Below, in pieces: positions 3,834 to 36,681 of a stretch of DNA of 36,681 bases (position 1 is the first letter of the stretch; every line of letters begins with the position of its first letter). A model generated the notes under the pieces. That model saw only the letters and a program-made list of their open reading frames with translations. It had not been told where the DNA came from and did no database searches. Location: positions 1 to 36,681 of IMG/VR virus record IMGVR_UViG_3300030099_002876; one strand, written 5' to 3'. Source of the stretch: a virus. Position numbers and translations under genes: made by a program.

Positions 3834-4230
3834 CTTGGTTTATTCCGCAGGATACCTAGATGCAGAGGGGTGCTTTCGATTTAATCATAGTGCTACGATT
3901 AGCGTTACAAACACCTACCCGTACACGCTTATGTTTTTGCAGGTACTATTCGGAGGAACTATTCGCACTAAAACCACCGGACCATCACAACGCACTGCTT
4001 ACGAGTGGTATGTGACTGGTGATAATGCTAGGAACTGTTTGCAACTTGTATCCCCATACCTTAGAGAAAAGAAGCCTCAAGCGGTAATTCTTGCCGAGAT
4101 ACCTTTGTACCCTCGGAAATCTGTAAGAAGAAAAAAGTTGGAGCTGTTGTTAAAATCAAAAAAACGTATTGATTACACCACGGACAGGATGTCCAAGGAG
4201 ACCGCATGGATTCAAAGCGAACACTGTTGA
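3808..4230 (+). CDS. LAGLIDADG-family homing endonuclease
   Basis: The 140-residue product carries one LAGLIDADG-type motif near the N-terminus, LVYSAGYLDAEGCFRF. It is followed by the usual pattern of this family: ISVTNTYPYTLMFLQVLFGG, then a YEWYVTGDNARNCLQLVSPYL segment (split here: YEWYVTGDNA and RNCLQLVSPYL) and a basic tail. A single-motif protein should act as a dimer. It is a free-standing gene between DNA polymerase and exonuclease, the place where T7 carries the HNH endonuclease gene 5.3. The frame is open upstream into the polymerase, but GTG 3808 is the first sensible start. The 3' end overlaps the exonuclease start and supplies its AAGGAG ribosome site. It is likely a selfish element spreading next to polymerase. 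Confidence 0.8.
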   Translation: MPTGQKLIDLVYSAGYLDAEGCFRFNHSATISVTNTYPYTLMFLQVLFGGTIRTKTTGPSQRTAYEWYVTGDNARNCLQLVSPYLREKKPQAVILAEIPLYPRKSVRRKKLELLLKSKKRIDYTTDRMSKETAWIQSEHC

Positions 4231-4946: not shown

Positions 4947-5272
4947 ATCGAGAAGAATACTTTGACTTCCACAAGCTTCTATGTGATGAGGCTTTGGAGC
5001 TTTCCAAGCGAAAGAATGCTGATTACGCCGGTGCTGATGGTAACCGCCCGTTCTCAAACTTCACCCGCTGTGAATCAATGGGGATCTGCGCGACTGAAAA
5101 GGGTTTCTTGGTTCGTCTTACCGACAAGATGAGCAGGCTGTCTACGTTTTCTGAAACCGGCCAATTCATGGTTGCGGACGAGAGTTTTAAGGACACCTGC
5201 ATTGATGTAATCAACTATGTGTGTCTTCTTGCTGCGTATGTGGAGGCTAAAAAAAATGAGCGACACCGATAA
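4943..5272 (+). CDS. Phage protein of the nucleotide-modification-associated type
   Basis: The 109-residue protein has LSKRKNADYAG, then PFSNF, then GFLVRLTDKMSRL, then ESFKDTCIDVINYVCL. This matches my memory of the small phage family annotated as nucleotide modification associated domain 1 (RKN-DY---F-NF---G-LVRL-DKL-RL---D---D---Y). Its biochemical role is not established to my knowledge. I chose ATG 4943, which overlaps the exonuclease stop as ATGA; the frame is open to TTG 4934. Confidence 0.85.
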   Translation: MNREEYFDFHKLLCDEALELSKRKNADYAGADGNRPFSNFTRCESMGICATEKGFLVRLTDKMSRLSTFSETGQFMVADESFKDTCIDVINYVCLLAAYVEAKKNERHR

Positions 5273-7994: not shown

Positions 7995-8255
7995 ATGGAA
8001 GAGCTAAGCAGTCATCTGCTTGATATTGCAATGACGCTTGTAGGCAGTGCTTTATTAGCCCTTATTGGGTTTGTCTGGCGCATCAGCCACAAGGTTTCTT
8101 CTTTAGAAAGGCAGATTGAAGGTATTAGAGAACTTCAAAAAAGGGACCAAACAGAAACCCGGCGAGACATGGATATGATTATGTCTAAAGTCGATAAGCA
8201 CGGGGAATGGACTACAAATAGAATGATGTCCATTGCAAAGGAACTGCCAAGATGA
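7995..8255 (+). CDS. Membrane-anchored coiled-coil protein (holin-like)
   Basis: 86 residues. One strong transmembrane helix (LLDIAMTLVGSALLALIGFVW, split here as LLDIAMTLVG and SALLALIGFVW) is followed by a long charged helix with coiled-coil character (KVSSLERQIEGIRELQKRDQ and onward). Such a layout occurs in small phage holins and membrane anchors; I cannot assign a family. AAAGGAAG directly before ATG 7995 decides the start over ATG 7968. It is the first of three consecutive membrane proteins between scaffold and capsid. Confidence 0.78.
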   Translation: MEELSSHLLDIAMTLVGSALLALIGFVWRISHKVSSLERQIEGIRELQKRDQTETRRDMDMIMSKVDKHGEWTTNRMMSIAKELPR

Positions 8256-19800: not shown

Positions 19801-21346
19801 CGGATTGCGGCAGGGAACCCGAGTAGACAAACTCGATGAGTATGTAGAAAAACAATTTAATCGTTTGGTAGAAGGCAACCAAAGGGTTACGGCAAATAAG
19901 TTTGTAAAAGAAGCCGAGGCTAAGTTTGACCAGACAGACCCGCACTATGCCGCCAAGGTGCAGAAGTATGTGCAGCGGCAGATGCGTAAGTTCAGCCCCT
20001 TGGCCGAAAGAGCATTAGCGGCGGCGAGAGAAGCTACCTTTACTACTCCCTTAAGCGGAGAACGTGGGATTCTTTCTGGTATTGGCAAGATAACCTCTGA
20101 TGCTGTCATCGCTTACCCACCGCTTCGCATGGTCTTGCCCTTTGTCAGAACTCCGACCAACATTATGCAGTTTGTTCTGGATCGGGTTCCGCTTGTGGGA
20201 GGAGGCCAAGCCACCCAGATTCAACACATGCTTAGGCGAAAGTTCTCTGGTGAAGTGCGGGCATTGACCTCGAATCAACAAGCAGAAAAAGCCGATGCTC
20301 TAGGCCGACTCGCCACGGGTAGTCTGTTCTTCTCAGGAGCGGCGATTGCCATGATGAACGGCGGACTTACAGGAGGCGGCCCAAAAGACTTCAAACAGCG
20401 TAGGATCAAAGAGCAGACCGGCTGGCAACCGTACTCATTCAAGGTAGGGGACACCTATGTCTCCTACCGACGTTTGGACCCGTTTGCTTCATTCTTAGGT
20501 ATTGCAGCGGATCTTGTTGAAGTAATGCAGCATGGGGATGAGCAACAAAGAACCGACGCAATGGACATTGCTTTGGGGGCCACTATGGCAATCTCAAAGA
20601 ACATTGCATCCAAGACGTATCTCCAAGGTATTCAAGATGTAGCGGGTCTCCTGTTTGAGCCAGAAATAAATGCCCCTGGATTCCTTAACAGGACTATTGC
20701 ATCCTTCGCAGTTCCAAACGTATTTGCCCAGACAGCGAGAGCTGGTGACGATGAAATGAAGGACATCCGAAGTTTGACTGATGCACTAAAGGCTCGCATC
20801 CCTGGTCTGGGGGCATACGATGAAGTTCCTCCACGCCGAAACATGCTGGGGGAACCTATCCACGACAACGGCAGCAGCATGGCTGTCGATTTGTTAAACC
20901 CATTTTACATTTCTACGGTTCGAGATAACAAGATGATGGAGGAGTTTGACAAGATTGGTCATGGATTCTCTACGCCCAGGTCTCTTAAAAACGGCGTAGA
21001 GCTTCGGGATTATTTCAACGCCAACGGACAATCTGCTTACGACCGATGGCAGGAGATGACCGGACAAACGAAAATTAAAGGTCGCACTCTCAAGCAAGAA
21101 CTTACCAAACTTATGAAATCCGTCCAGTACAAGAGACTCCCGTATGAATCTATGGACGGTGTGGATCGTAGTCCTAGAGCAAGGCTGATTCAGAGCATTC
21201 TGACCAAGTATAGAGCGAAAGCCTTCTCCGAAATGTTGCGAGAATTCCCGGAAGTACGGGAGCGGAACAAGATCCATCAAATGATTAAGACCCGACGAAC
21301 GGTAGGACGAGACTACCAAGACCTTCTCGCACTTATCGAGGATTAA
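16880..21346 (+). CDS. Internal virion protein gp16-like with putative HExxH metallopeptidase domain
   Basis: 1488 residues (T7 gp16 has 1318). The N-terminal 230 residues include Gly/Ala-rich hydrophobic stretches (VVETIVQFGVGFAAPGIGG). A domain at about residues 350-500 contains FVHEVWHALE (HExxH at 388-392) and, about 70 residues on, SAEEWLAENMADA, which may supply the third ligand. This looks like a zincin-type metallopeptidase. The N-terminal lytic transglycosylase of T7 gp16 is not visible. The C-terminal half is long and helical, with hydrophobic patches near AEWWMNSILSGPTTMIVNG (as TEWWMNSILSGPTTMIVNG). A strong AAGGAGGAGG precedes the start. It should be injected with DNA and cross the envelope. 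Confidence 0.88.
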   Translation: MALRFNNDDLDSYLDSQEQERVSNPQLESQEVEEDMGFWGTVGDLAMAPVRGIAGAAEGIYSLADAIAFDILPDAEENFGLGGSETFAGSVVETIVQFGVGFAAPGIGGLSVASKLGKVGKIGKMVDAGNKAVKSQQAAGRYLPALAIARGMEMGKYAVAGAVADFTVFDGHEQRLSNLLQEVPALQNPVTEFLAADEEDPELVGRLKAAIEGAGLGVMVDSVLLGVRAMRAGVKAGPDKKAASIALAERQKELIEEEAKKVSKDVRDAQDVDDLPLSDDLDSLFEVPKNPSTSSDAYPVKRGVEAVQNRINREASQGDLTQEEAIFANSLLQRLSQTGDLENTGIRFRTSRNLGGEDVAGTYDWVNNVISIATQTVKEGRFDRTFVHEVWHALERSIDPTQLAAMRRDLYKQRKAFAKKYGEKYEDLFMGRTGEIKERFSKLVEERSIEKEEFYRLTSAEEWLAENMADATFARLDLEEGTKSLFGGMRKIFRDLLTEIKVKFGKGTYDKIARGFLEGTYSPASKASPQMLDASTLAFKGRSVTADIRPDKTDPLTTKTTEDLTEDLLNPENMGGTVTDATTVLNRMAKDAQALEESQKRVEGSSRPFRQETDAEYQEEVAKRSIQDREEAIAAAKEVDEASGTQLTLLERAIQNLGEVTGEARERAIEFRYRLGAARQLLAEVGRRADAIAKRVLDPTEATSDRDIAEFLLMQGNFKTLANNLRAVQSEWGRNLKSIQRSTTDTPGAAVVKGIPEEEAIAKYSMKNLDDEQTLAYIIDVAGGRDRIIAEMKLFRAAHENSPAGAMKYLRGKAGMMGAVTEWWMNSILSGPTTMIVNGASGVATTLLAPLEKAMGQALSGNFREAGIEFGRVLALPGEMRDAFKAARTAHKTGRGVLEDVGSRADERAAQGGKIEQSIETLTKNIDQENVSIVAAKWLARNVINQPGKILLGTDEFFKQLNYRTVLKAELYKDGLRQGTRVDKLDEYVEKQFNRLVEGNQRVTANKFVKEAEAKFDQTDPHYAAKVQKYVQRQMRKFSPLAERALAAAREATFTTPLSGERGILSGIGKITSDAVIAYPPLRMVLPFVRTPTNIMQFVLDRVPLVGGGQATQIQHMLRRKFSGEVRALTSNQQAEKADALGRLATGSLFFSGAAIAMMNGGLTGGGPKDFKQRRIKEQTGWQPYSFKVGDTYVSYRRLDPFASFLGIAADLVEVMQHGDEQQRTDAMDIALGATMAISKNIASKTYLQGIQDVAGLLFEPEINAPGFLNRTIASFAVPNVFAQTARAGDDEMKDIRSLTDALKARIPGLGAYDEVPPRRNMLGEPIHDNGSSMAVDLLNPFYISTVRDNKMMEEFDKIGHGFSTPRSLKNGVELRDYFNANGQSAYDRWQEMTGQTKIKGRTLKQELTKLMKSVQYKRLPYESMDGVDRSPRARLIQSILTKYRAKAFSEMLREFPEVRERNKIHQMIKTRRTVGRDYQDLLALIED

Positions 21347-25664: not shown

Positions 25665-27338
25665 ATGACAGATCCCAGGTTACATGACTTCAGAAACTTT
25701 CTGTACTTGTGTTGGGAACACCTGGGACTCCCTGACCCTACCCCGGTTCAATACGACATTGCGGATTACATCCAGAACGGCCCAAAGCGGCGTTGTGTGA
25801 TGGCGTTCCGTGGTGTGGGCAAGTCTTGGATTACCTCGGCGTTCGTGGTGCATCAGTTGTTACTGGACCCCACCAAGAACATCCTGGTGGTCTCCGCATC
25901 AAAGCAACGTGCTGATGACTTCTCCACTTTCACCTTGCGACTCATTGATGAGATGCCGGTCCTTCAGCACCTGAAGCCTCACGAAAATCAAAGAAACTCC
26001 AAGATTGCTTTTGATGTGGGGCCAGCACCTGCGGCACACGCCCCCTCCGTTACCTCGAAGGGGATCACAAGTCAGATCACGGGTGCAAGAGCTGATGTCA
26101 TCATCAGTGACGATGTGGAGAGCTTGAACAACTCCGCCACTCAAATGATGCGTGACAAGCTGGCGGAGCAGATCAAGGAATTCGATGCAGTCCTCAAACC
26201 TGGAGGACACATCATTTACCTGGGAACTCCCCAGACTGAAGCCAGTCTTTACAACCAACTCCCAGAGCGTGGCTATGACATCCGCATATGGCCCGCCAGG
26301 ATACCGACAGAACGGCAACGATTGGGATATGGCCCCAAGTTGGCCCCCATGATTGCCAAATTGGATTTAGAAGAGGATGCTCCCGTAGACCCAAAAAGAT
26401 TCAATACATTTGACCTGCTTGAACGTGAAGCCTCATATGGGAAATCGGGGTTTGCTCTTCAATTCATGCTGGACACCACACTGTCCGATGTGGATCGCTA
26501 CCCCCTTAAGTTGTCGGATCTGATCGTAATGCGATTGGACAAGGAACACGCTCCTGAGAAGATCGTGTGGGCGGGGTCTCCTGAGTATGCGTACAAAGAC
26601 CTGCCGTGTGTGGGGATGTCCGGTGACCGGTACTACATGCCGATGGGCGTTTCAGGGGACTTCTTGAAATACCAGGGATCTGTCCTCGCCATAGACCCCA
26701 GTGGCCGAGGTAAGGACGAGACCGCCTACGCAGTTATCAAGATGTTGAACTCACAGCTCTTCCTGACAGCCGCAGGAGGACTCCCTGGGGGGTACTCAGA
26801 AGAGACCCTGAAGGAGCTGGCAGTCATCGCCAAAGACCACGATGTCAATGAAGTAATCATCGAGTCAAACTTCGGGGATGGCATGTTCACCGCCCTGTTT
26901 CAGCCGATTCTTGCCAAGATCCACAAAGTCACGATCAACGAAGTTCGCCACAGTATCCAGAAAGAACGGCGAATTTTGGACGTTTTAGAGCCAGTTCTAG
27001 CCAGGCACAAATTAGTGGTGGATGAGTCCATAATCCAAAAGGATTACAACTCCACCCAACACCTGCCCCCTGACAAAGCCCTGAAATACATGCTGTTCTA
27101 CCAGATGACCCGGTTGACCAGGGATAAAGGCTCCCTAGCCCATGATGACCGCCTGGATGTTCTGGCAATCGCAGTGAACTACTGGACTGAACAGATGTCT
27201 AGGGATGTTGATGATGCTATGAAAGTCCACCAACAAGAAAAGCTCCGCACGGATCTAGACAAATTCATGGAGAATGCTCTTGGAAGCCACGGAAGGCAGG
27301 AAACCACATGGATAACCGGGCAGAACTCAGGAGCGTGA
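25665..27338 (+). CDS. Terminase large subunit (T7 gp19-like)
   Basis: The 557-residue packaging motor (T7 gp19 has 586) has an ATPase domain with Walker A MAFRGVGKSW (residues 46-55), then LVVSASKQRADDFS and Walker B VIISDDVESL. The nuclease domain has LAIDPSGRGKDETAYAVI, then EVIIESNFGDGMF and HDDRLDVLAIAV. It translocates DNA into the prohead and cuts the concatemer. TGATG at its stop couples it to the next gene. Confidence 0.97.
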   Translation: MTDPRLHDFRNFLYLCWEHLGLPDPTPVQYDIADYIQNGPKRRCVMAFRGVGKSWITSAFVVHQLLLDPTKNILVVSASKQRADDFSTFTLRLIDEMPVLQHLKPHENQRNSKIAFDVGPAPAAHAPSVTSKGITSQITGARADVIISDDVESLNNSATQMMRDKLAEQIKEFDAVLKPGGHIIYLGTPQTEASLYNQLPERGYDIRIWPARIPTERQRLGYGPKLAPMIAKLDLEEDAPVDPKRFNTFDLLEREASYGKSGFALQFMLDTTLSDVDRYPLKLSDLIVMRLDKEHAPEKIVWAGSPEYAYKDLPCVGMSGDRYYMPMGVSGDFLKYQGSVLAIDPSGRGKDETAYAVIKMLNSQLFLTAAGGLPGGYSEETLKELAVIAKDHDVNEVIIESNFGDGMFTALFQPILAKIHKVTINEVRHSIQKERRILDVLEPVLARHKLVVDESIIQKDYNSTQHLPPDKALKYMLFYQMTRLTRDKGSLAHDDRLDVLAIAVNYWTEQMSRDVDDAMKVHQQEKLRTDLDKFMENALGSHGRQETTWITGQNSGA

Positions 27339-27499: not shown

Positions 27500-27645
27500 A
27501 AAAGGACTCCACCTACCTTGAGATACTAGAAGCCCTTAGAAGCGATCCTAGAGCCTTAGAGATCAAATGGCATTTGGAACGACTCATTGAGAAACATAAG
27601 GTTTCTTGGGGCCGACAATGCTCAGGACTCAGGAAAAATCGCTAG
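27496..27645 (+). CDS. Basic 49-residue hypothetical
   Basis: The product begins MKKDSTYLEILEALRSDPRA and continues EIKWHLERLIEKHKVSWGRQ, a helical amphipathic pattern with a basic end. It begins at ATGA overlapping the previous TGA. It is too short for most gene callers but has gene-like composition. It is the last gene before the structured non-coding region. Confidence 0.6.
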   Translation: MKKDSTYLEILEALRSDPRALEIKWHLERLIEKHKVSWGRQCSGLRKNR

Positions 27646-27663
27646 GATTATTCCAGGATCTTT

Positions 27664-27742
27664 GAGACCTCCCTTACCTCCTCATGATTACCAGGATTGA
27701 GTGCATCCTTGACTGGTTTTCGTGGGGGGTAAGGGGGGCCTC
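27664..27742 (+). other. Long stem-loop (RNA or DNA structure)
   Basis: Bases 27664-27682 pair with 27724-27742 over 19 positions, with one A-C mismatch and three G-T/G-U pairs; the 3' arm is G-rich (GGGGGGTAAGGGGGG). The 41-base loop contains a smaller hairpin (AGGAT, 7-base loop, ATCCT). The G-U pairs make the fold stronger as + strand RNA than as DNA. Confidence 0.6.
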
Positions 27743-27775
27743 TTCTACTAGGATCTTGGAAAAATCCTAATAAAG

Positions 27776-27841
27776 ATAACTATAGAATATCTATAGAGAC
27801 ACTATAAGACAATGTAAAGATATCTATAGAACAACTATATC
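27776..27841 (+). repeat. Six-unit 11-bp tandem array
   Basis: The units in order are ATAACTATAGA, ATATCTATAGA, GACACTATAAG, ACAATGTAAAG, ATATCTATAGA and ACAACTATATC. The shared CTATA(G)A core recurs exactly every 11 bases (27780, 27791, 27802, degenerate 27813, 27824, 27835), close to one helical turn. T7 carries arrays of short repeats next to its terminal repeats, so a packaging role is a reasonable analogy. Confidence 0.8.
27798..27810 (+). promoter_or_regulatory. Candidate phage RNA polymerase promoter near the right end
   Basis: GACACTATA in the third array unit is identical to the nine-base core of the SP6 promoter (GACACTATAG), and resembles K11 and T7 cores (CACTATAG). T7 has the promoter phi-OR in the same place, after the terminase. 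The upstream half of the SP6 promoter is not matched. Inference. Confidence 0.35.
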
Positions 27842-28514: not shown

Positions 28515-28555
28515 TCGACTGTTCAAGTTTTTTAAACCATTTAAGGGATGCGCTC

Positions 28556-28903
28556 ATGAAGATTCAATATACCGGACGTGATGGAATTGAACGCGAAACC
28601 GAAAACGTATGGGTTGATTGGCCCGATGGGTATTGTTGGCTCGTGGTAAATCAGTGGGGAGTTATTGGCGCGGTCATCACAATGAACAAAGGCGAAACCG
28701 GATGGCACGAAGCGTACGAATGCGCAGTCGATGAGATTGCCCACGATTACCATGCGGACAATCAGGAGGAATTAGAGGTGGCAATGGCCGATGGTATGGC
28801 TATGTATCGGGGGAACGGCATCCCATCGAATTCCAATCGGGAATCGGCCATTGCAGATACCGAATATCTGACAGTCATTCGGCCACAATCTCTCCGAGCC
28901 TGA
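28556..28903 (+). CDS. Early hypothetical protein 1
   Basis: 115 residues, acidic and rich in Trp (VWVDWPDGYCWLVVNQWG). The middle part, GWHEAYECAVDEIAHDY, looks helical. T7 and relatives put host-takeover proteins such as anti-restriction functions first in the early region, so such a role is possible, but nothing in the sequence proves it. A start-associated element (TTTAAGGGATGCGCTC) precedes ATG 28556. Confidence 0.82.
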   Translation: MKIQYTGRDGIERETENVWVDWPDGYCWLVVNQWGVIGAVITMNKGETGWHEAYECAVDEIAHDYHADNQEELEVAMADGMAMYRGNGIPSNSNRESAIADTEYLTVIRPQSLRA

Positions 28904-28922
28904 AAATACCTGGGCTAGTGTC
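28904..28922 (+). repeat. Degenerate GGCC intergenic element
   Basis: AAAATACCTGGGCTAGTG directly after the stop resembles the 5' half of the intact copies at 29979, 30590 and 30891. The second hairpin arm is missing. Confidence 0.5.
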
Positions 28923-29015
28923 GTAGAATTTTTTACCCTTTTTCGTAAAGTACACTTGACAATCTACCGATGTAGTAGTAGTATCAAACCGAACCCAATT
29001 TTAAGGATGCACACA
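28923..29015 (+). repeat. 93-bp promoter-leader repeat, copy 1
   Basis: 88 of 93 bases are identical to 29595-29687. It contains an AT-rich upstream part (GAATTTTTTACCC), the promoter, a leader (ACCGAACCCAATTTTAAGG) and the start-associated element, as a complete expression cassette. Confidence 0.93.
28956..28984 (+). promoter_or_regulatory. Host sigma70-type early promoter 2
   Basis: TTGACA (28956-28961), 17-base spacer, TAGTAT (28979-28984). The AT-rich sequence just upstream could act as an UP element. It drives the gene at 29016. Confidence 0.82.
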
Positions 29016-29330
29016 ATGTCACTAATTCAAACAATCCGCAGCGCATCACATATCCGGGATGAATTCAACCGATACGGCCGATATAGCCAGTTCACCTATT
29101 ACGCATATGATGCACTTTTCGAGTATTACAACGAATTGAGCGATAATACCGGAGAGCCTATCGAATTCGATGTCGTGGCGATATGCTGCGAATGGACAGA
29201 ATACGATTCGTTGCAGGAGTTGGCATCCGCGTACGGTCTGGACGATTCGGACGATCTACGGGACATCGGTACCCTGCTTCCTGTCGAGAATTCCAACGGC
29301 GCGATCCTTAGTTGGCTTTTCAGCGAATGA
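29016..29330 (+). CDS. Early hypothetical protein 2 (conserved phage type)
   Basis: 104 residues: IRDEFNRYGRYSQFTYYAYD, then ALFEYYNELSDNTGEPIEFD, then VVAICCEWTEYDSLQELAS. The pattern F--YGR--QFSY-A---LF-YLE-LE-DTGE-IE-DVIAICC is one I know from many tailed-phage hypothetical proteins; no function is established to my knowledge. The ATG inside the start element at 29007 is in frame and would add MHT. I prefer 29016, at the standard distance from AAGGA. Confidence 0.88.
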   Translation: MSLIQTIRSASHIRDEFNRYGRYSQFTYYAYDALFEYYNELSDNTGEPIEFDVVAICCEWTEYDSLQELASAYGLDDSDDLRDIGTLLPVENSNGAILSWLFSE

Positions 29331-29336
29331 AAAAAT

Positions 29337-29355
29337 CCCTGGCCTGGTTTGGGCT
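29337..29355 (+). repeat. GGCC intergenic element (variant)
   Basis: CCCTGGCCTGGTTTGGGCT differs from the intact copies only at its 3' end (GGGCT in place of GGCCA), which weakens the hairpin. It merges into a (CT)8 run at 29354-29369. Confidence 0.7.
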
Positions 29356-29369
29356 CTCTCTCTCTCTCT
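29354..29369 (+). repeat. (CT)8 dinucleotide repeat
   Basis: Eight CT units follow the GGCC element and are followed by the 12-bp palindrome CTTTAATTAAAG (29368-29379). The run lies in the leader of the next gene, upstream of its ribosome site. Confidence 0.9.
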
Positions 29370-29388
29370 TTAATTAAAGGATTCAACA

Positions 29389-29598
29389 ATGAAAAACACC
29401 ACTACCGATTCCGTCCTTAAATCTGGGCAAGAAGTAACTGTTTGGGACGACATTCACTATGAATGGAAAGACTCTTCCGTTGGAGAACCCTGGTTTTACG
29501 TCCGACAAGCTAAGAACGGTGAAGACCATATCGTCGCTTGTGAAGGAATTAATTACCGAGTTTCCGGCGACGAGATTCTCGAGCTTGTAGAGGGGTAG
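29389..29598 (+). CDS. Early hypothetical protein 3
   Basis: 69 residues, acidic, with VTVWDDIHYEWKDSSVGEPW and YRVSGDEILELVEG. Its start element is divergent (TTAAAGGATTCAACA). It resembles a small beta-rich domain; no family is recognised. Confidence 0.75.
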   Translation: MKNTTTDSVLKSGQEVTVWDDIHYEWKDSSVGEPWFYVRQAKNGEDHIVACEGINYRVSGDEILELVEG

Positions 29599-29687
29599 AA
29601 TTTTTTACCCTTTTTCGTAAAGTACACTTTACAATCTACCGATATGATAGTAGTATCAAACCGAACCCAATTTTAAGGATGCGCACA
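29595..29687 (+). repeat. 93-bp promoter-leader repeat, copy 2
   Basis: Second copy of the cassette at 28923-29015, with five substitutions: one in the -35 hexamer (TTTACA), three in the spacer and one in the start element. It begins within the last codons of the preceding gene. Confidence 0.93.
29628..29656 (+). promoter_or_regulatory. Host sigma70-type early promoter 3
   Basis: TTTACA (29628-29633), 17-base spacer, TAGTAT (29651-29656). The altered -35 may make it weaker than the other two. It drives the gene at 29689 and onward. Confidence 0.78.
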
Positions 29688-29688
29688 A

Positions 29689-29889
29689 GTGAAACAAATT
29701 AGCGAACAATTTAACAACGGAAAAACAACGATCCGCATGGAATTTTCTGGACCTAATCAACAATGGTTTGTGTGGCGGGATGATGAAGGATATGTCGCAA
29801 ACAATCAGATAACTAAACACGATACGAGAGATGATGCGCTTGGCGAATTTAATCGACGGTGTGATTTTCTCCGGAAGATTGGGGGTTGA
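29689..29889 (+). CDS. Early hypothetical protein 4
   Basis: 66 residues with GTG start 29689, displaced by one base relative to the ATG of the sister cassette. It contains ISEQFNNGKTTIRMEFSGPN and WFVWRDDEGYVANN; this looks like a small beta-sheet protein. No family is recognised. A 27-residue membrane ORF follows after 2 bases. Confidence 0.7.
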   Translation: MKQISEQFNNGKTTIRMEFSGPNQQWFVWRDDEGYVANNQITKHDTRDDALGEFNRRCDFLRKIGG

Positions 29890-29891
29890 GG

Positions 29892-29975
29892 ATGGTACTC
29901 CTGTTTCCTGCGTTCCTCTCGATCTGTGTTCTCATTTACTCGATATACCAATACATCAACGATGACACCGAATGA
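29892..29975 (+). CDS. 27-residue membrane microprotein
   Basis: The product starts MVLLFPAFLSICVLIYSIYQ and ends YINDDTE: one hydrophobic helix followed by an acidic tail. GGTTGAGG lies just before ATG 29892, with short spacing, and the gene is probably coupled to the previous one. It ends where a GGCC element begins, as the other early genes do, which favours a real gene. Confidence 0.55.
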   Translation: MVLLFPAFLSICVLIYSIYQYINDDTE

Positions 29976-29978
29976 AAA

Positions 29979-30000
29979 CCCCTGGCCTGGTTTGGCCACA
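29979..30000 (+). repeat. GGCC intergenic hairpin element, copy A
   Basis: CCTGGCCTGGTTTGGCCACA with a TGGCC-TGGTTT-GGCCA hairpin. It starts 3 bases after a stop codon and is followed by TTTAAGGATGCACCA and the next ATG. Confidence 0.85.
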
Positions 30001-30016
30001 CTTTAAGGATGCACCA

Positions 30017-30253
30017 ATGAAAACAAATTTAACAATCACTCCCAACGTAGCCGATGCCCGTTTGTTCGACAGTTTCGATGATGCTAATGATGCCGCCATT
30101 CTTTTTAATCTCTCCACGATGGAAAACCTGGAAGCCACAGCGCATCTCAATGGGTATCACAAGGATGCGAAGTATCGTTTGACGGTTTCCCATGTCCGAA
30201 ATTTGGATGCGGATAGACGAGTTACTGAGACTATCGGGTGGATATCCGAATAA
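30017..30253 (+). CDS. Early hypothetical protein 5
   Basis: 78 residues: MKTNLTITPNVADARLFDSF, then DDANDAAILFNLSTMENLEA. No family is recognised. I chose ATG 30017, positioned by the start element; the frame is open to 29972 through the GGCC element, which would add a meaningless KTPGLVWPHFK leader. The ATG inside the element (30010) opens a three-codon frame ending TGA that overlaps this start. Confidence 0.76.
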   Translation: MKTNLTITPNVADARLFDSFDDANDAAILFNLSTMENLEATAHLNGYHKDAKYRLTVSHVRNLDADRRVTETIGWISE

Positions 30254-30293
30254 ATTTCAAGCCAATTTTAAACACACTTTAAGGATGCACACA

Positions 30294-30584
30294 ATGCAAC
30301 GAATCACGAAAAACCAAGTTTACCGAATGATCGAACTACTTAACGATACGCTGGAAACTCCGCGGGATGTCTACGAATTGAACGAGGACGGTTCCATAAA
30401 GCGTACAGAGGATGGACGGCCAATCTCGAACCCTCGAACCATATCACTTTATGGTGATATTTGTGGGTGGCGATTGGAAACCCGCGCAGGCTCTCGGGAG
30501 CTTACCAGCATGGGCACACTCCGAGAAACCTACGACAAAGCTCGCGCGATGTACGACGGTATCAACATGGCACGCGAAATCTAA
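30294..30584 (+). CDS. Early hypothetical protein 6 (conserved phage type)
   Basis: 96 residues: MQRITKNQVYRMIELLNDTL, then GDICGWRLETRAGSRELTSM, then GTLRETYDKARAMYDGINMA. The pattern of an LN helix, a GGWRL beta hairpin and a C-terminal T--E-YD-I-AM--GI helix is recurrent in phage early proteins with no known function. ATG 30285 inside the start element is in frame and would add MHT. Confidence 0.84.
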   Translation: MQRITKNQVYRMIELLNDTLETPRDVYELNEDGSIKRTEDGRPISNPRTISLYGDICGWRLETRAGSRELTSMGTLRETYDKARAMYDGINMAREI

Positions 30585-30589
30585 AAAAT

Positions 30590-30611
30590 ACCCTGGCCTG
30601 GTTTGGCCACA
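30590..30611 (+). repeat. GGCC intergenic hairpin element, copy B
   Basis: Identical to copy A over CCTGGCCTGGTTTGGCCACA. It lies 6 bases after the stop and before GAAAGGATGCACACA and ATG 30629. Confidence 0.87.
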
Positions 30612-30628
30612 ATGAAAGGATGCACACA

Positions 30629-30886
30629 ATGATAAATCGAAACGAAAAGCAAGGCCCAAACTTTACGATTGAAATATTTCACCGACAATGGTGGAATGCG
30701 GATGGAACCCCGATTACCGAAATGGAACGCGGAAAGGTAGTAAAAAGGATTCATGGGACGGATCTCAACATGTTGCGCCGGGAGGCAAGGGAACTTTGCG
30801 CACAGTTTGACTGTGAGCGTAAATCCAACTATCGCTGGGATGCGCGAGGGCGCAAGCACGAATTCCGTATCGTCGGCACTCACTGA
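30629..30886 (+). CDS. Early hypothetical protein 7
   Basis: 85 residues, basic: FTIEIFHRQWWNADGTPITE, then GTDLNMLRREARELCAQFDC and a final basic strand (RWDARGRKHEFRIVG). The strand-helix-strand layout suggests a small alpha-beta protein. No family is recognised. It has a start-associated element and is followed by GGCC copy C. Confidence 0.78.
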   Translation: MINRNEKQGPNFTIEIFHRQWWNADGTPITEMERGKVVKRIHGTDLNMLRREARELCAQFDCERKSNYRWDARGRKHEFRIVGTH

Positions 30887-30890
30887 AAAT

Positions 30891-30911
30891 ACCCTGGCCT
30901 GGTAGGCCACA
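30891..30911 (+). repeat. GGCC intergenic hairpin element, copy C
   Basis: CCTGGCCTGGTAGGCCACA. The loop is one base shorter (TGGTA) than in copies A and B, while both arms TGGCC and GGCCA are intact, so the stem is kept while the loop varies. Confidence 0.85.
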
Positions 30912-30926
30912 TAAAAGGATGCACCA

Positions 30927-31130
30927 ATGACAGTACATATACAGCTCAACACTAAAAACGATACGAACGGAAACCCTCGAAGAATCTCGCTACTCCTCGA
31001 ATCAGAGGAGGTGAAAGACGTAAGAGACCATGGATATAGTGGTCATCCGCGAGAATGGGGCTCACCTATCACAATCATAGACGTTACACCCGGTGAATAC
31101 CGCTATTGGAAAAAATGGAAGCGTAAGTGA
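30927..31130 (+). CDS. Early hypothetical protein 8
   Basis: 67 residues, basic C-terminus: NGNPRRISLLLESEEVKDVR, then ITIIDVTPGEYRYWKKWKRK. Its start element is TAAAAGGATGCACCA. The stop overlaps the next gene (GTGA). No family is recognised. Confidence 0.76.
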   Translation: MTVHIQLNTKNDTNGNPRRISLLLESEEVKDVRDHGYSGHPREWGSPITIIDVTPGEYRYWKKWKRK

Positions 31131-31324
31131 AGAAAATGGGAATCCGAATAGTTTACAGAACACTCCAGGATAATATCCATGATCAAGAAACCCTCGAGGA
31201 TGGGGAGCCAAAAGGTGAGGGGTTTTACTGGTCTCAAACCGATCCTTTCGGTTGGAGACTGACCGATTGGGATGGACCTTACAAAACCCACGAGGACGCG
31301 GCAAAAGCTGCGGGTGCGGATTGA
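31127..31324 (+). CDS. Early hypothetical protein 9
   Basis: 65 residues: GIRIVYRTLQDNIHDQE, then GEGFYWSQTDPFGWRLTDWD and GPYKTHEDAAKAAG. The end resembles the GPF-T-EEA--A pattern of small phage proteins. The start is GTG 31127 overlapping the previous stop, so it is the only early gene without its own start element; it appears translationally coupled. Confidence 0.76.
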   Translation: MKKMGIRIVYRTLQDNIHDQETLEDGEPKGEGFYWSQTDPFGWRLTDWDGPYKTHEDAAKAAGAD

Positions 31325-31336
31325 AAGGATGCACAG

Positions 31337-31567
31337 ATGATTAACATTGTCCCCGAACAAAAATCAAAGCGTTTACCTGGGTTGATTGAGATCCTCAGCA
31401 ACAAGGCACACACCAAGACCCGTGCCAAGGACATTGCAGAATCGAAGTGTGACCGTGGTGAGCCGTTGTTGATTCAGGTTGATGAGTACGGGAAGACTCG
31501 GTATCTTGCGGCACAGCTCACGTTGGTCCCCGGCTCCCGTGGATCTGTTACGATACCCGCAGATTAG
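31337..31567 (+). CDS. Early hypothetical protein 10
   Basis: 76 residues: SKRLPGLIEILSNKAHTKTR, then AESKCDRGEPLLIQVDEYGK and TRYLAAQLTLVPGS. No family is recognised. The base composition is closer to that of the integrase and polymerase than to the earlier small genes. A start element (GAAAGGATGCACAG) precedes ATG 31337. Confidence 0.74.
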   Translation: MINIVPEQKSKRLPGLIEILSNKAHTKTRAKDIAESKCDRGEPLLIQVDEYGKTRYLAAQLTLVPGSRGSVTIPAD

Positions 31568-31643
31568 TGCATCTCTTTCTCCTCCGGTGGGGGTGCGACC
31601 ACCTAAAAACGCACGCCTCTTTACTACACTGAAAGGATTAAGA

Positions 31644-32648
31644 ATGCCGATCATCCTTCGCGGCGAAAAATTTCAGGTTACGGTTCACCGTAACCGCAAG
31701 CGTTACCGAAGAACATTTACAGATCATCAAGAAGCAAAGGTATGGGAGGCGCAGGCCGTTGCCGACTTGGTTGCGGGGAAGCTCCCCGACCTTGGCGAGA
31801 CTCGCGGAACTTCTAGTCCCCGCACGGTGCAAGAGCTTGCGTGGCATACCTACCGCACGGAGTGGTCGGGAACCCCCAGCGACGACAAGGCGCAGATCAA
31901 CATCAACCAGTTGATTGATGCTTTGGGTTCCGACACTTTGATTCAAGATGTTAATGCTTCCTTGATTGATGCGGCGAAGTTGTCATGGAAGGCTCGCGGC
32001 AACGCCCCCGGTACAATCAATCGCAAGTTGTCTTGCCTCTCCAAGATTCTCAGCAAAGCTATGGACATGGGGATCATCGACGAGAAGCCGAAGCTGACCA
32101 AGGAGAAGGAGCCACCCAGTAGGATCAGGTGGTACACCGATCAAGAAAAGGTGGCGATCTCGGAGGCCCTGAAGGAACTCGGTTACGACCGCTACGTTGG
32201 CTTGGTTGAGGTGCTGATGGGGACGGGGCTGCGGTGTGGAGAGCTTTTCCGCTTGCAGCCCAGGGATATCCAAGGCAACCTGATTGTTGTGGAAATCAAC
32301 AAGTCGGCGTGGCCTCGTTCGGTGCCGATGACGAAGCGAGTTCGCACCGTTATCAATCGGGAACTCTCCGCAATGGCTCGGGATCAGGAAACCCTTTGGG
32401 GGTGGACGACATACGAGAAGTTCTCCCGAGTCTGGAACGAGGCTCGCGGTGCTTTGGGGTGGAGCGATGATCCGCAGGCTATCCCCCACGCCTGTAGGCA
32501 CACTTTTATCACGAACCTTGTACAGCGCGGAGTCTCCATGCCGGTGATTCAAAAGCTCGCAGGTCACAGGTCCATCACGATGACTATGAAGTATGCTCAC
32601 CTGGGTTCCCAGGATCTGGAGGGAGCCATCTCAGCGTTGGAGGGTTGA
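31644..32648 (+). CDS. int: Tyrosine recombinase / integrase
   Basis: 334 residues. An N-terminal arm-binding region (ILRGEKFQVTVHRNRKRYRR) is followed by a SAM-like core-binding domain (TVQELAWHTYRTEWSG to INRKLSCLSKILSKA) and the catalytic domain. Catalytic residues visible are Arg197 (GTGLRCGELF), His282 and Arg285 (HACRHTF), His308 (LAGHRS) and Tyr317 (MKYAH). It would integrate the phage at the attP probably lying in the tRNA four bases downstream. The frame is open to 31479, but ATG 31644 follows GAAAGGA and begins the recognisable domain. Its place before RNA polymerase matches integrase-bearing cyano- and pelagiphage podoviruses. Confidence 0.93.
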   Translation: MPIILRGEKFQVTVHRNRKRYRRTFTDHQEAKVWEAQAVADLVAGKLPDLGETRGTSSPRTVQELAWHTYRTEWSGTPSDDKAQININQLIDALGSDTLIQDVNASLIDAAKLSWKARGNAPGTINRKLSCLSKILSKAMDMGIIDEKPKLTKEKEPPSRIRWYTDQEKVAISEALKELGYDRYVGLVEVLMGTGLRCGELFRLQPRDIQGNLIVVEINKSAWPRSVPMTKRVRTVINRELSAMARDQETLWGWTTYEKFSRVWNEARGALGWSDDPQAIPHACRHTFITNLVQRGVSMPVIQKLAGHRSITMTMKYAHLGSQDLEGAISALEG

Positions 32649-32652
32649 CGTG

Positions 32653-32735
32653 GTGGGCGTGGCGAAATCGGCAAACGCACAAGACTTAAAATCTTGCGAC
32701 CCTTGGTCTTACGGGTTCGAGTCCCGTCGCCCACA
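32653..32735 (+). tRNA. tRNA-Leu (anticodon UAA), probable attP
   Basis: A complete cloverleaf: acceptor GTGGGCG with CGCCCAC (7 of 7), D-arm GCG/CGC, anticodon stem CAAGA/TCTTG with loop CTTAAAA (anticodon TAA at 32687-32689), long variable arm (class II), T-arm ACGGG-TTCGAGT-CCCGT and discriminator A32735. The CCA end is not encoded. It directly follows the integrase gene, the usual arrangement for an attP that restores the host tRNA after integration. Confidence 0.93.
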
Positions 32736-32769
32736 CTAATTTACAATTTTTTGTAGTATAAAGCGGAGC

Positions 32770-32793
32770 TGTGACGATAAGGATGTTGTCACA
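32770..32793 (+). promoter_or_regulatory. Inverted repeat upstream of RNA polymerase
   Basis: TGTGAC (32770-32775) and GTCACA (32788-32793) are perfect inverted copies with a 12-base spacer containing AAGGATG. It ends 17 bases before the RNA polymerase start. It could be an operator or a leader hairpin. The gap 32736-32810 also has a small TACAA-TTTT-TTGTA hairpin right after the tRNA. Confidence 0.45.
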
Positions 32794-32810
32794 AAAATAG
32801 GGATGCACGG

Positions 32811-35192
32811 ATGCGTCAATCTGATTTAGATTCAGAGATGATTGAGTTGGGCCGAGACCGATATTGGTCGAAGGTCAATCGCGGACAAAACGATCAGATG
32901 GAAACATACTCCCCAGTCGCTAAGCGGCTGCTGGGTGAATCCATCATCAGACTGCAAGAAACCATCGAGTTCTGGTGCCACAACGCGAGGACGGGGCCGG
33001 GGCGTAAGCATCGGTGTTTAGAGTACATCGAGCTGCTGCCGTCTGATCTGGTTGCGGCGTTGACGGCTCGCACGGTACTCGATGGCATCTCGATGCGCCG
33101 GACGTTGACCGCGATCAGCATTCGGCTAGGCCAGTACCTAGAAGATGAATACCGATTCCGAAAAATTCAGGAAGAGGAGCCGGAGCTTTGGAAATCTTTG
33201 TTCAACCGAACGAAAAAGCACGGTGGGTACGTTCAGAAGCGAAGGTTCATCCATAAGTCTGCGAAGGCGGCGGGTGTGGTACTTCCCAGGTGGACGGGGA
33301 AGGTTGCTTGTTCTGTCGGGTTGGTGTTGGTGGAGTTGATGAAGGAGGCCACGGGTCTCATCGAGATCAAGACCATCAACACGTTGTTCAACCGCAGCAC
33401 AACGATGGTGATGGCGACCGATGATCTGTTGGATTGGATCAAGAAGGCTCACGGTCACCATGAAATCTTGTCTCCCGTGTTCCTACCTACCGTGGTGAAG
33501 CCGATGCCGTGGCAGTCGATATACATCGGGGGCTATCACTCGGATGAGGTCCGTCGGCGGCCACTCGTAAAGTCTTACGACAAGAAATTTTTGGAGGAGT
33601 TGAACAACACCGACATGCCAGCTGTGTACGAGTGCTTGGGGCATGAGCAGGACACGGCTTGGAGGATTAACGAGGAGGTGCTGAAATGTGTGCGGCACGC
33701 TTACGACCACAACCACCAAGTCGGCGGACTCCCTACCAACCAAGACCACGATCTTCCTGATCGCCCCGATGACTGGGAGGACCCCGTTCAGCAGAAGCTG
33801 TGGAGACGACACGCGGCTGAGATCCATCGCCTTAACAACGGGGACCGCTCCAAGCGACTGCAACTCGGAAAGATTTTATATCTTGCTGAAAAGTTCAAAG
33901 GCCGTCCCATTTGGTTTCCGAAGCAATGTGATTTTCGCGGACGCACTTACGATATCCCAAGCCCTTTGAATTGTCAGGGTTGTTCGGTTGCGAAAGCACT
34001 CTTGGAGTTTTCAGAGGGTGACCCGATAGAGAATCAGAACGATGCGAACTGGTTAGCGGTTCAAGCTGCAAACACCTGGGGCCACGATAAGAAAACCTTC
34101 GACTACCGGGTGAAGTGGGTGTGGGAAAACGAGGATCTATTCCGACGGATTGCGAAAGATCCATTAGGGTACACCCAGTGGAAGGATGCTGATGAGCCTT
34201 GGGAGTTCTTAGCGGTTGCGATGGACATCGGAAGGTTTCTGGAGCAGGGCTATGGCTATGTATCACGAACTGCGGTGGCCCAAGACGCTTCCAATCAAGG
34301 CTTACAAATTTATGCGTTGCTTCTCCGCGATGAAGAGGCGGCGCGTAATACCAATGTATTACCGAGCAATACCCCCCAAGATTTATATGCGATGGTGGCT
34401 CAACGAGTTATTGACCTGTTGAAGAACACCTCCAACGATTACAACGACGGCTGGCTTTCTTTTGGAATTACTAGAGCTACCACGAAAAGGCAGACGATGG
34501 TACTTCCATACGGATCTACCAAGCAGAGTTGTAAGGAGTACACCATCGAATGGTTCCAAGAAATGTTGACGAGGCGTGGTGTGGTGAACCCATTCGATGA
34601 GGTGTTTAAGCCCTGCATCTACTTGTCGGATCTGATCTGGGATTCCATTGGTGATGTTGTTTCCTCCGCACGGGTTGGCATGGATTGGCTTAGAAATGTC
34701 GCACGCATTTGCATGGAAAACAAAGTTAACCCAATGTGGACCTCGCCGTCTGGATTCCTGGTCAAGCAGCTATATGAAAAGCAAGCGAGTTATGAGGTCA
34801 AGACCAGCATTGGTGAGAAGATTCGCAGGCACCGGCTGCAATACGGCAGGGGTGAAGCAGCTCCCCGCAGGAACATCAACGGGATCAGCCCGAACTATGT
34901 TCATTCTCTTGACGCTGCTTTGAAAACCCTCACGATTAATCTCTCAGCAAGCGCGGGGGTGTCCCAGTTCGCAGCGGTACACGACTCTTTGTCCACCACC
35001 GCCAAGCACTCCGGCACACTCGCAACCGCAGTGCGACAATCCACTGTAGATATGTTCACTCCCAATTTGTTGGAAGTGTTTAGGAATCAGATCGAGTGCC
35101 AGCTTCCGGTTGGCGTGGAACTTCCCGATGTACCTGCGATGGGTAAGCTTAACATCACAAAGGTGATGGAATCGGATTACTACTTCGCGTGA
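32811..35192 (+). CDS. Single-subunit DNA-dependent RNA polymerase (T7 gp1-like)
   Basis: 793 residues (T7 gp1 has 883). Catalytic motifs are present: VAQDASNQGLQIYALLLRDE with Asp492, ATTKRQTMVLPYGS with Lys559 and Tyr567 (spacing identical to T7 Lys631/Tyr639), and FAAVHDSL with Asp725. Also ICPNYVHSLDAA-type segment as ISPNYVHSLDAALKTL and an aromatic C-terminus ending YYFA, like the T7 'foot' FAFA. It transcribes the middle and late genes from phage promoters. It is made from the early transcripts and has its own start element. The N-terminal domain is shorter than in T7. Confidence 0.97.
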   Translation: MRQSDLDSEMIELGRDRYWSKVNRGQNDQMETYSPVAKRLLGESIIRLQETIEFWCHNARTGPGRKHRCLEYIELLPSDLVAALTARTVLDGISMRRTLTAISIRLGQYLEDEYRFRKIQEEEPELWKSLFNRTKKHGGYVQKRRFIHKSAKAAGVVLPRWTGKVACSVGLVLVELMKEATGLIEIKTINTLFNRSTTMVMATDDLLDWIKKAHGHHEILSPVFLPTVVKPMPWQSIYIGGYHSDEVRRRPLVKSYDKKFLEELNNTDMPAVYECLGHEQDTAWRINEEVLKCVRHAYDHNHQVGGLPTNQDHDLPDRPDDWEDPVQQKLWRRHAAEIHRLNNGDRSKRLQLGKILYLAEKFKGRPIWFPKQCDFRGRTYDIPSPLNCQGCSVAKALLEFSEGDPIENQNDANWLAVQAANTWGHDKKTFDYRVKWVWENEDLFRRIAKDPLGYTQWKDADEPWEFLAVAMDIGRFLEQGYGYVSRTAVAQDASNQGLQIYALLLRDEEAARNTNVLPSNTPQDLYAMVAQRVIDLLKNTSNDYNDGWLSFGITRATTKRQTMVLPYGSTKQSCKEYTIEWFQEMLTRRGVVNPFDEVFKPCIYLSDLIWDSIGDVVSSARVGMDWLRNVARICMENKVNPMWTSPSGFLVKQLYEKQASYEVKTSIGEKIRRHRLQYGRGEAAPRRNINGISPNYVHSLDAALKTLTINLSASAGVSQFAAVHDSLSTTAKHSGTLATAVRQSTVDMFTPNLLEVFRNQIECQLPVGVELPDVPAMGKLNITKVMESDYYFA

Positions 35193-36178: not shown

Positions 36179-36681
36179 GCCGTGTCCTGCGTGTGGAAGC
36201 AAGGATAACCTGGCGAGGTACTCCGACGGACACGCTTGGTGTTTCGGCTGCAACTACCGCGAACACACTGGAGAGGTTTTGAACGTGATAGCAAAACCAA
36301 AGGATGCACGATTCATCGAGGGGGAGACATCGCCACTCCAGAGCCGGGGACTCACAGAAGCTACCTGCGGTAAATTTAACTACAAAGTTGGGGAGTTCAA
36401 CGGCAGGCACTGCCACATCGCAGCCTACCGAGGGGCGGATGGGGCGTTGGTCGGACAGAAGCTCCGCTTCCGTGACAAGTCATTTATGATGATCGGAAAG
36501 TCTTCCGGTTTATTCGGTGAGCATCTTTTCCGAGATGGTGGAAAAATGATTACGGTCACCGAGGGCGAGCTTGATTGTCTTTCCGTTAGCCAAGCCTTTG
36601 GAAACAAGTGGCCGGTGGTCTCCGTTCCTAACGGAGCCAAGGGAGCGGCGAAGGCAATAAAGAATTCGTTGGAGTTCTTGG
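36135..36681 (+). CDS. Primase-helicase, N-terminal part (T7 gp4-like)
   Basis: The start at ATG 36135 places the zinc-finger cysteines at residues 17, 20, 36 and 39 (EPCPACGS and WCFGC), exactly the numbering of T7 gp4A. LQSRGLTEATC and KLRFRDKSFMMIG follow, and then VTEGELDCLSV of the TOPRIM domain, running into bases 1-1151 across the junction. The zinc domain reads the primase recognition sequence. An internal in-frame GTG at 36285 with GGAGAGG eight bases upstream could give a short form without the zinc finger, as T7 makes gp4B. Confidence 0.95.
   Translation, partial: MSMDPESSSQFLHHEPCPACGSKDNLARYSDGHAWCFGCNYREHTGEVLNVIAKPKDARFIEGETSPLQSRGLTEATCGKFNYKVGEFNGRHCHIAAYRGADGALVGQKLRFRDKSFMMIGKSSGLFGEHLFRDGGKMITVTEGELDCLSVSQAFGNKWPVVSVPNGAKGAAKAIKNSLEFL
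36583..36681. repeat. Contig-end direct repeat (copy 2)
   Basis: Identical to bases 1-99; see the first entry. Coding sequence of the primase-helicase. Confidence 0.97.

Follow-up and report, generated by a model that had tools for sequence, protein, structure and literature searches.

Start-associated sequences in the early genes of a marine T7-like phage and a giant hairpin with the complementary apex: a putative antisense switch

We analyzed the whole 36,681-nt stretch of IMG/VR record IMGVR_UViG_3300030099_002876 (hereafter the window), which is a 36.7-kb contig of a marine T7-like phage. Its early and RNA polymerase (RNAP) genes carry a start-associated sequence (SAS; AAGGATGCAC) directly 5' of their start codons, and the complement of this sequence (GTGCATCCTT, the anti-SAS) is located at the apex of a giant hairpin that follows the late genes. 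From sequence comparison, we consider it moderately probable that the SAS would act both as a ribosome-binding site and as an address tag of an early regulon, with the giant hairpin as an antisense regulator recognizing this tag. The proposal is based on the exact complementarity of the apex to the SAS, on the observation that apex and SAS change together among relatives, and on the presence of the SAS at early starts only. All the T7-like data are metagenomic contigs, many of them fragments, in which gene starts were called by simple scripts.

The start-associated sequence

The original prediction held that eleven start codons are preceded by near-identical copies of the element. We scored the early and RNAP starts against 33 late starts with a leave-one-out position-weight matrix (PWM). 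Nine starts (28556, 29016, 29689, 30017, 30294, 30629, 30927, 31337 and 32811) reached 13-21 bits, and start 29389 reached 10.0, exceeding every late gene. The integrase start at 31644 scored 2.3, no better than the late genes, so that nine strong copies and a weak one were retained from the eleven and the integrase copy was dropped. The maximum at the late starts was 6.0, confining the SAS to non-structural genes. GGATGC and a C two bases on were invariant across the nine strong sites; conservation thus extends past the Shine-Dalgarno (SD) sequence, as had been claimed.

Allowing at most one mismatch, AAGGATGCAC matched 12 times in the window compared to 2.48 expected, a number reached in 0 of 100 shuffles, and this enrichment together with the separation of early from late starts bore out the association with start codons. 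Some of the 12 matches are not start elements. The perfect copies at 2012, where the DNA polymerase frame begins (MHTVIIDIET), and at 36300, within the primase frame, were rejected as coding coincidences; the latter is retained in four relatives because the encoded protein is conserved. The others are at 20697 (minus strand, one mismatch) and at 27701 (minus strand), which is the anti-SAS itself. We also rejected a mini-ORF (open reading frame) starting at the ATG inside GGATG, since its frame varies among genes (0, 1 or 2 relative to the true start), giving no conserved coupled upstream ORF. Tandem duplication of the genes does not explain the conservation: comparison of the 11 early proteins with one another by BLASTP gave nothing significant (best E 0.12), and one leader block is duplicated (28916-29016 and 29588-29688; 101 nt, 92%), without duplication of the downstream genes.

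IMG/VR searches with the RNAP recovered relatives at 49-82% identity. Two of them, L008 and L028, have the same SAS as the window before early genes of other content; L016/G009, L017, L048, L049 and L014 have a different type, GAGGATGAAC, and G006, G012 and G013 have early ribosome-binding sites of their own, the most stereotyped being that of G013 (AGGAGGAT). The phrog_9974-like gene retains its SAS in the window, L008 (as AAGGATGCACACC, before the ortholog of the gene at 29016) and L016, with a change of SAS type. The SAS of the RNAP gene is identical in L008 and reads GGATGCAAGG in L014-L016. Homology for swapping early genes, which had been listed among the possible roles, could be a by-product, as orthologues keep a SAS while its type changes between lineages.

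The giant hairpin and the proposed switch

The giant hairpin (-70.3 kcal/mol, z -7.9) sits in the 3' untranslated region (UTR) of the last late ORF, whose stop is at 27645, and should therefore be part of the late transcript. Where the start elements are GAGGATGAAC, the hairpin loop is GTTCATCCTC, the changed bases being compensated relative to the AAGGATGCAC/GTGCATCCTT pair. The tip complements the SAS of the same phage exactly in the window, L028, L141, L084 and L153 and at 8-9 of 10 positions in G015, G016, G009 and G006; in G013 it matches the AGGAGGAT variant. Sites of at least 8 nt for a phage's own loop numbered 10 in the early region of the window, 7 in L028, 8 in L084, 6 in L153, 8 in G009 and 11 in G013, whereas the minus strand of these regions had 0-2. 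Pairing over at least 8 nt was found at 43 of 108 early starts but only 3 of 134 late starts (p about 1e-14). The assignment of loops to SAS of their own type ranked 1 of 24, a rank not to be over-read given the small permutation space and the relatedness of the phages.

A pattern scan of IMG/VR, which itself required CATCCT at the tip and left the apex position and flanking bases free, gave 73 stretches, about 20 of which are the giant hairpin in different contigs. In 21/21 elements (several are near-identical, leaving about six independent lineages), the strand co-directional with the genes gave the more stable RNA fold of the two, pointing to an RNA transcribed along with the late genes. 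Paired G.U outnumbered single A.C mismatches 176 to 13 on this coding-sense strand, compared to 67 to 49 on the other. An alignment of all hairpins by MAFFT misplaced the loop and RNAalifold gave a weak result on it, so the groups were aligned separately; compensatory stem changes were found at 6, 4, 1 and 3 pairs within groups A, C, D and B, respectively. No family of the Rfam 15 covariance models matched.

In the proposed switch, the hairpin would be transcribed as the 3' UTR of a late mRNA, perhaps trimmed to a small RNA (sRNA), and its loop would pair with the SAS copies on the early mRNAs, covering the SD bases and preventing ribosome loading. Translation of the early genes could thereby be shut off after late transcription begins, or the SAS genes silenced in a lysogen. 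Hairpins associated with the stop codons of the early genes (GGCC in the window, other sequences in relatives) may keep the initiation of each cistron independent and dependent on its own SAS. The co-variation of tip and SAS supports specific pairing; the expression of the hairpin, the direction of its effect and the timing are what we infer. Antisense pairing was one of several roles put forward in the original prediction, and it gained strong evidence through 27643-27769, which lies outside the region considered there.

Alternative explanations

Several observations weigh against the antisense switch. The window anti-SAS lies partly within the apical stem (loop UGCAUC), with only part of the stretch in the loop, and would require partial opening of that stem to pair. 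The loop of G006 is not specific for its own starts, and the pairing in G009 spans only 8 nt. No giant hairpin was found in the more distant contig G012 or in Pelagibacter phage HTVC031P. A separate hairpin RNA, made from its own promoter or by processing, is only putative. The group D phages (L046/G021 and L143) keep the hairpin in the absence of the SAS regulon (0-3 sites), which calls for a different or more ancient function of the hairpin.

The group D phages also fit the proposal that the hairpin is a DNA element of a T7-type concatemer junction, for terminase processing or for hairpin priming at the genome end, its match to the SAS being secondary or fortuitous. The position of the hairpin, with the terminase genes directly upstream and tandem ATATCTATAGA repeats downstream, agrees with this proposal, as the T7 terminal repeat occupies a comparable place, after the terminase and near short repeats. 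A junction element, however, does not predict a tip that tracks the SAS type, and a duplex palindrome would not favor G.T over A.C on one strand, although a single-stranded DNA hairpin could. We regard a junction element as the whole explanation as unlikely, and a structural role at the genome junction as likely also present. It is still less probable, in our estimate, that the SAS is only a strong ribosome-binding site that selection on early translation or short-patch recombination has kept uniform, with no regulator. The SAS does contain AAGGA at good spacing, one leader block is a recent copy, and extended SD sequences are repeated in other phages too (L053, L072, L081); but the conservation of TGCAC beyond the SD, the restriction to early genes and the co-varying complement at the hairpin tip argue against it.

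We give very little weight to the idea that SAS and hairpin tip are copies of one protein's binding site, for either a DNA stoperator or an RNA-binding regulator. A double-stranded DNA site would indeed show inverted at the tip, and, having an integrase, the phage may also encode a repressor; the inverted copy, however, keeps one orientation and its place at the hairpin apex in every case, every SAS overlaps the SD at a fixed distance, and an RNA-binding protein would need the same sequence rather than the complementary one.

Other features and genome setting

Coordinates of the features in the window are given in Table 1. TGGCC-N3-9-GGCCA occurs exactly 3 times in the window (29983, 30594 and 30895) compared to 0.19 expected. 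The claim that the arms are kept and the loop varies agrees with the three copies: the arms are identical and the loops are, in order, TGGTTT, TGGTTT and TGGTA. These copies and the broken one each start directly after a stop codon. The copy at 28904 retains only the stop-codon-proximal TGAAAATACC-TGGGC part. The three intact copies thus stood as predicted, with 29338 broken and 28904 partial. The element could not be upheld as a central feature, since the exact GGCC-plus-SAS pattern had 0 matches in IMG/VR and the hairpin sequence is limited to this phage. In relatives the same place is taken by other hairpins associated with stop codons, whose stems differ in sequence and still fold.

Table 1. 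Features located in the window, with positions and strand
Feature	Position	Strand	Remark
Terminase, T7-type	25665-27338		
Small conserved hairpin GAGAAAC..GGTTTCTT and direct repeat CTCAGGACTCAGG	27588-27633	+	upstream of giant hairpin
Giant hairpin	27643-27769	+	arm about 45 bp; between last late ORF and early region
Anti-SAS GTGCATCCTT	27701-27710	+	giant hairpin apex; exact 10-nt complement of AAGGATGCAC
Host-type promoter P1	28486-28514	+	TTGACA-17-TAGGAT, spacer TCTACCGAT
SAS AAGGGATGCGCTC	28543-28555	+	before ATG 28556; leave-one-out PWM 13.2
Host-type promoter P2	28956-28984	+	TTGACA-17-TAGTAT, spacer TCTACCGAT
SAS AAGGATGCACACA	29003-29015	+	before ATG 29016, phrog_9974-like gene
GGCC element, broken copy (29338)	29331-29355	+	3' arm changed to GGGCT
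Weak SAS AAGGATTCAACA	29377-29388	+	before ATG 29389; PWM 10.0
Host-type promoter P3	29628-29656	+	TTTACA-17-TAGTAT, spacer TCTACCGAT
SAS AAGGATGCGCACAA	29675-29688	+	before GTG 29689
GGCC hairpin, intact copy 1	29976-30001	+	arms within 29983-29998
SAS AAGGATGCACCA	30005-30016	+	before ATG 30017
SAS AAGGATGCACACA	30281-30293	+	before ATG 30294
GGCC hairpin, intact copy 2	30585-30612	+	arms within 30594-30609
SAS AAGGATGCACACA	30616-30628	+	before ATG 30629
GGCC hairpin, intact copy 3	30887-30912	+	5-nt loop; arms within 30895-30909
SAS AAGGATGCACCA	30915-30926	+	before ATG 30927
SAS AAGGATGCACAG	31325-31336	+	before ATG 31337
Integrase gene	31644-32648		
tRNA-Leu(TAA)	32653-32736		
SAS AGGGATGCACGG	32799-32810	+	before RNAP ATG 32811
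RNAP gene	32811-35192		

The small hairpin and GACTCA direct repeat precede the giant hairpin in every group, with the same layout and different stem sequences. The tandem ATATCTATAGA repeats after the giant hairpin (27776-27839 in the window; same place in L143 and G006) are like the short repeats beside T7 terminal repeats, or like phage promoters. A spacer, GTACACTTGACAnTCTACC(C)GAT, is common to the early promoters beside the -35/-10 hexamers, in P1-P3 of the window and in L028 (4027-4050 and 4443-4466), and looks like a putative repressor operator of a temperate phage; a search with the early-promoter/spacer pattern matched only L028.

Upstream of the integrase gene (31586-31614) we noted a stem, a GGGTGCGA loop and a downstream ACGCAC; the element is also present in L008 (about 626-660 and 3914-3945), with the loop kept and different stems (GGTGG/CCACC, AGCAG/CTGCT, TGTAG/CTACA), and could form a pseudoknot (GUGCG:CGCAC). 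A second antisense-like element is located before the integrase in L016 (about 8070-8165; G009 14994) and L018 (about 1800-1880), consisting, in order, of an extended -10 promoter TGnTACAAT, TCATCCTCG and a strong GCACCCCTCC..GGGGGGGTGC hairpin, and is a candidate compact sRNA. The RNAP leader contains a TGTGAC..GTCACA hairpin with the loop GATAAGGATRTT kept between the window (32770-32793) and L008 (about 5008-5033), and this hairpin may serve as a target for pairing or represent integrase arm sites (relatives have TGTGGCA repeats).

SSB and RusA genes are also present in the window. No near isolate genome was recovered by megablast at the DNA level, and the closest isolate RNAP, at 38% identity, is in pelagiphages. 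A host search by tRNA-Leu match among genomes gave 0 matches. The sole RNAP match among genomes was a contig binned in a Euryarchaeota metagenome-assembled genome (MAG), and we did not trust it as an indication of a euryarchaeal host. L046 (PBMS01000033.1), a T7-like phage contig with an RNAP 77% identical to that of the window, is inside a MAG named Euryarchaeota, and this placement is probably a binning error.

Comparison with known systems

The SAS was described in cluster K mycobacteriophages, with single inverted copies noted in K1 phages (Pope et al. 2011, PMC3203893), and its function was called unknown in papers of 2024-2025 (PMC11373665; PMC12699233). The predicted parallel extends to the architecture: both are repeated elements directly upstream of many non-structural starts, with an SD and conserved extra bases, and inverted repeats or promoters are seen upstream in both. 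Sequence identity is lacking (consensus GGGATAGGAGCCC in cluster K, AAGGATGCAC in the window) and the phages are unrelated. The extended SAS of cluster K contains a SigA-like promoter together with inverted repeats of 15-17 bp, whereas in the window promoters and hairpins precede different genes, P2 and P3 having no hairpin and the GGCC hairpins no promoter. L028 and L008 have the order promoter (TTGACA/TATAAT type), hairpin, SAS, and the hairpin lies where the 5' end of the mRNA is expected.

K1 members also bear an anti-SAS hairpin. In the searched part of Anaya there is a single exact complement, CTCCTATCCC, located in an unannotated gap (0.05 expected in the genome), and regions similar to this gap are present in 177 mycobacteriophage records. 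In six K1-type genomes the loop CCTCCTATCC, the complement of the SAS GGGATAGGAG, is invariant in an unannotated kept hairpin, of which 98% of stem pairs are kept, through G.U and a few double changes. In Adephagia the hairpin is in the gene 92-93 gap, where late transcription was reported to initiate, and gp39 is listed as Hfq-like (PMC11373665). This gap (JF704105; L174) and the homologous cluster K gaps are about 330-380 nt, conserved, highly structured and mostly unannotated, with a promoter-like TTGRCG..TAGACT and several hairpins, and probably represent a non-coding RNA or a late leader. K8 Boilgate, which lacks the SAS, has no anti-SAS site in its right arm. Other cluster K results weigh against the switch as a general device. 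Covariation of the whole K1 stem was only modestly above shuffles (26/500), and TM4 and Pixie (K2/K3), with 11 and 18 SAS, have no anti-SAS in the right-arm parts searched. The loops of K5/K6 are degenerate, pairing through bulges alone and not clearly better than shuffles. The generality of the anti-SAS hairpin is supported by K1 and limited by K2/K3.

We tentatively raise the possibility that two unrelated groups, the marine T7-like phages and the cluster K mycobacteriophages, each arrived on their own at a stereotyped ribosome-binding tag on early genes throughout the genome and a single late-transcript antisense hairpin, whose loop, complementary to the tag, would turn off the entire early set together. 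If true, this convergent logic would supply the missing function of a SAS known since 2011 and would constitute a one-to-many antisense switch for the passage from early to late expression, which is usually attributed to a change of polymerase; the regulator would also be predictable from the tag alone in other genomes.

The c4 antisense RNA of P1/P7 (PMC12197685) is likewise phage-encoded and masks a ribosome-binding site through complementary stretches in its loops, but it has one target (ant) and a role in immunity, whereas a single loop here matches as many as ten starts. Complementarity to the ribosome-binding site is exposed in the loop here as in c4, in the window only partly. The C-rich-loop sRNAs such as LhrC have a loop complementary to the SD sequences of several mRNAs. 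We compared these Gram-positive (UCCC) sRNAs as SD-targeting sRNAs, with Listeria LhrC as the example (PMC4132741). They are bacterial and match the SD generically; here the match runs past the SD and follows the tag of each phage. The T7 concatemer-junction hairpin lies after the terminase at the genome junction. The similar position of the giant hairpin in the contig is suggestive; the tip of the giant hairpin, by contrast, tracks the SAS, and its strand bias points to a single strand.

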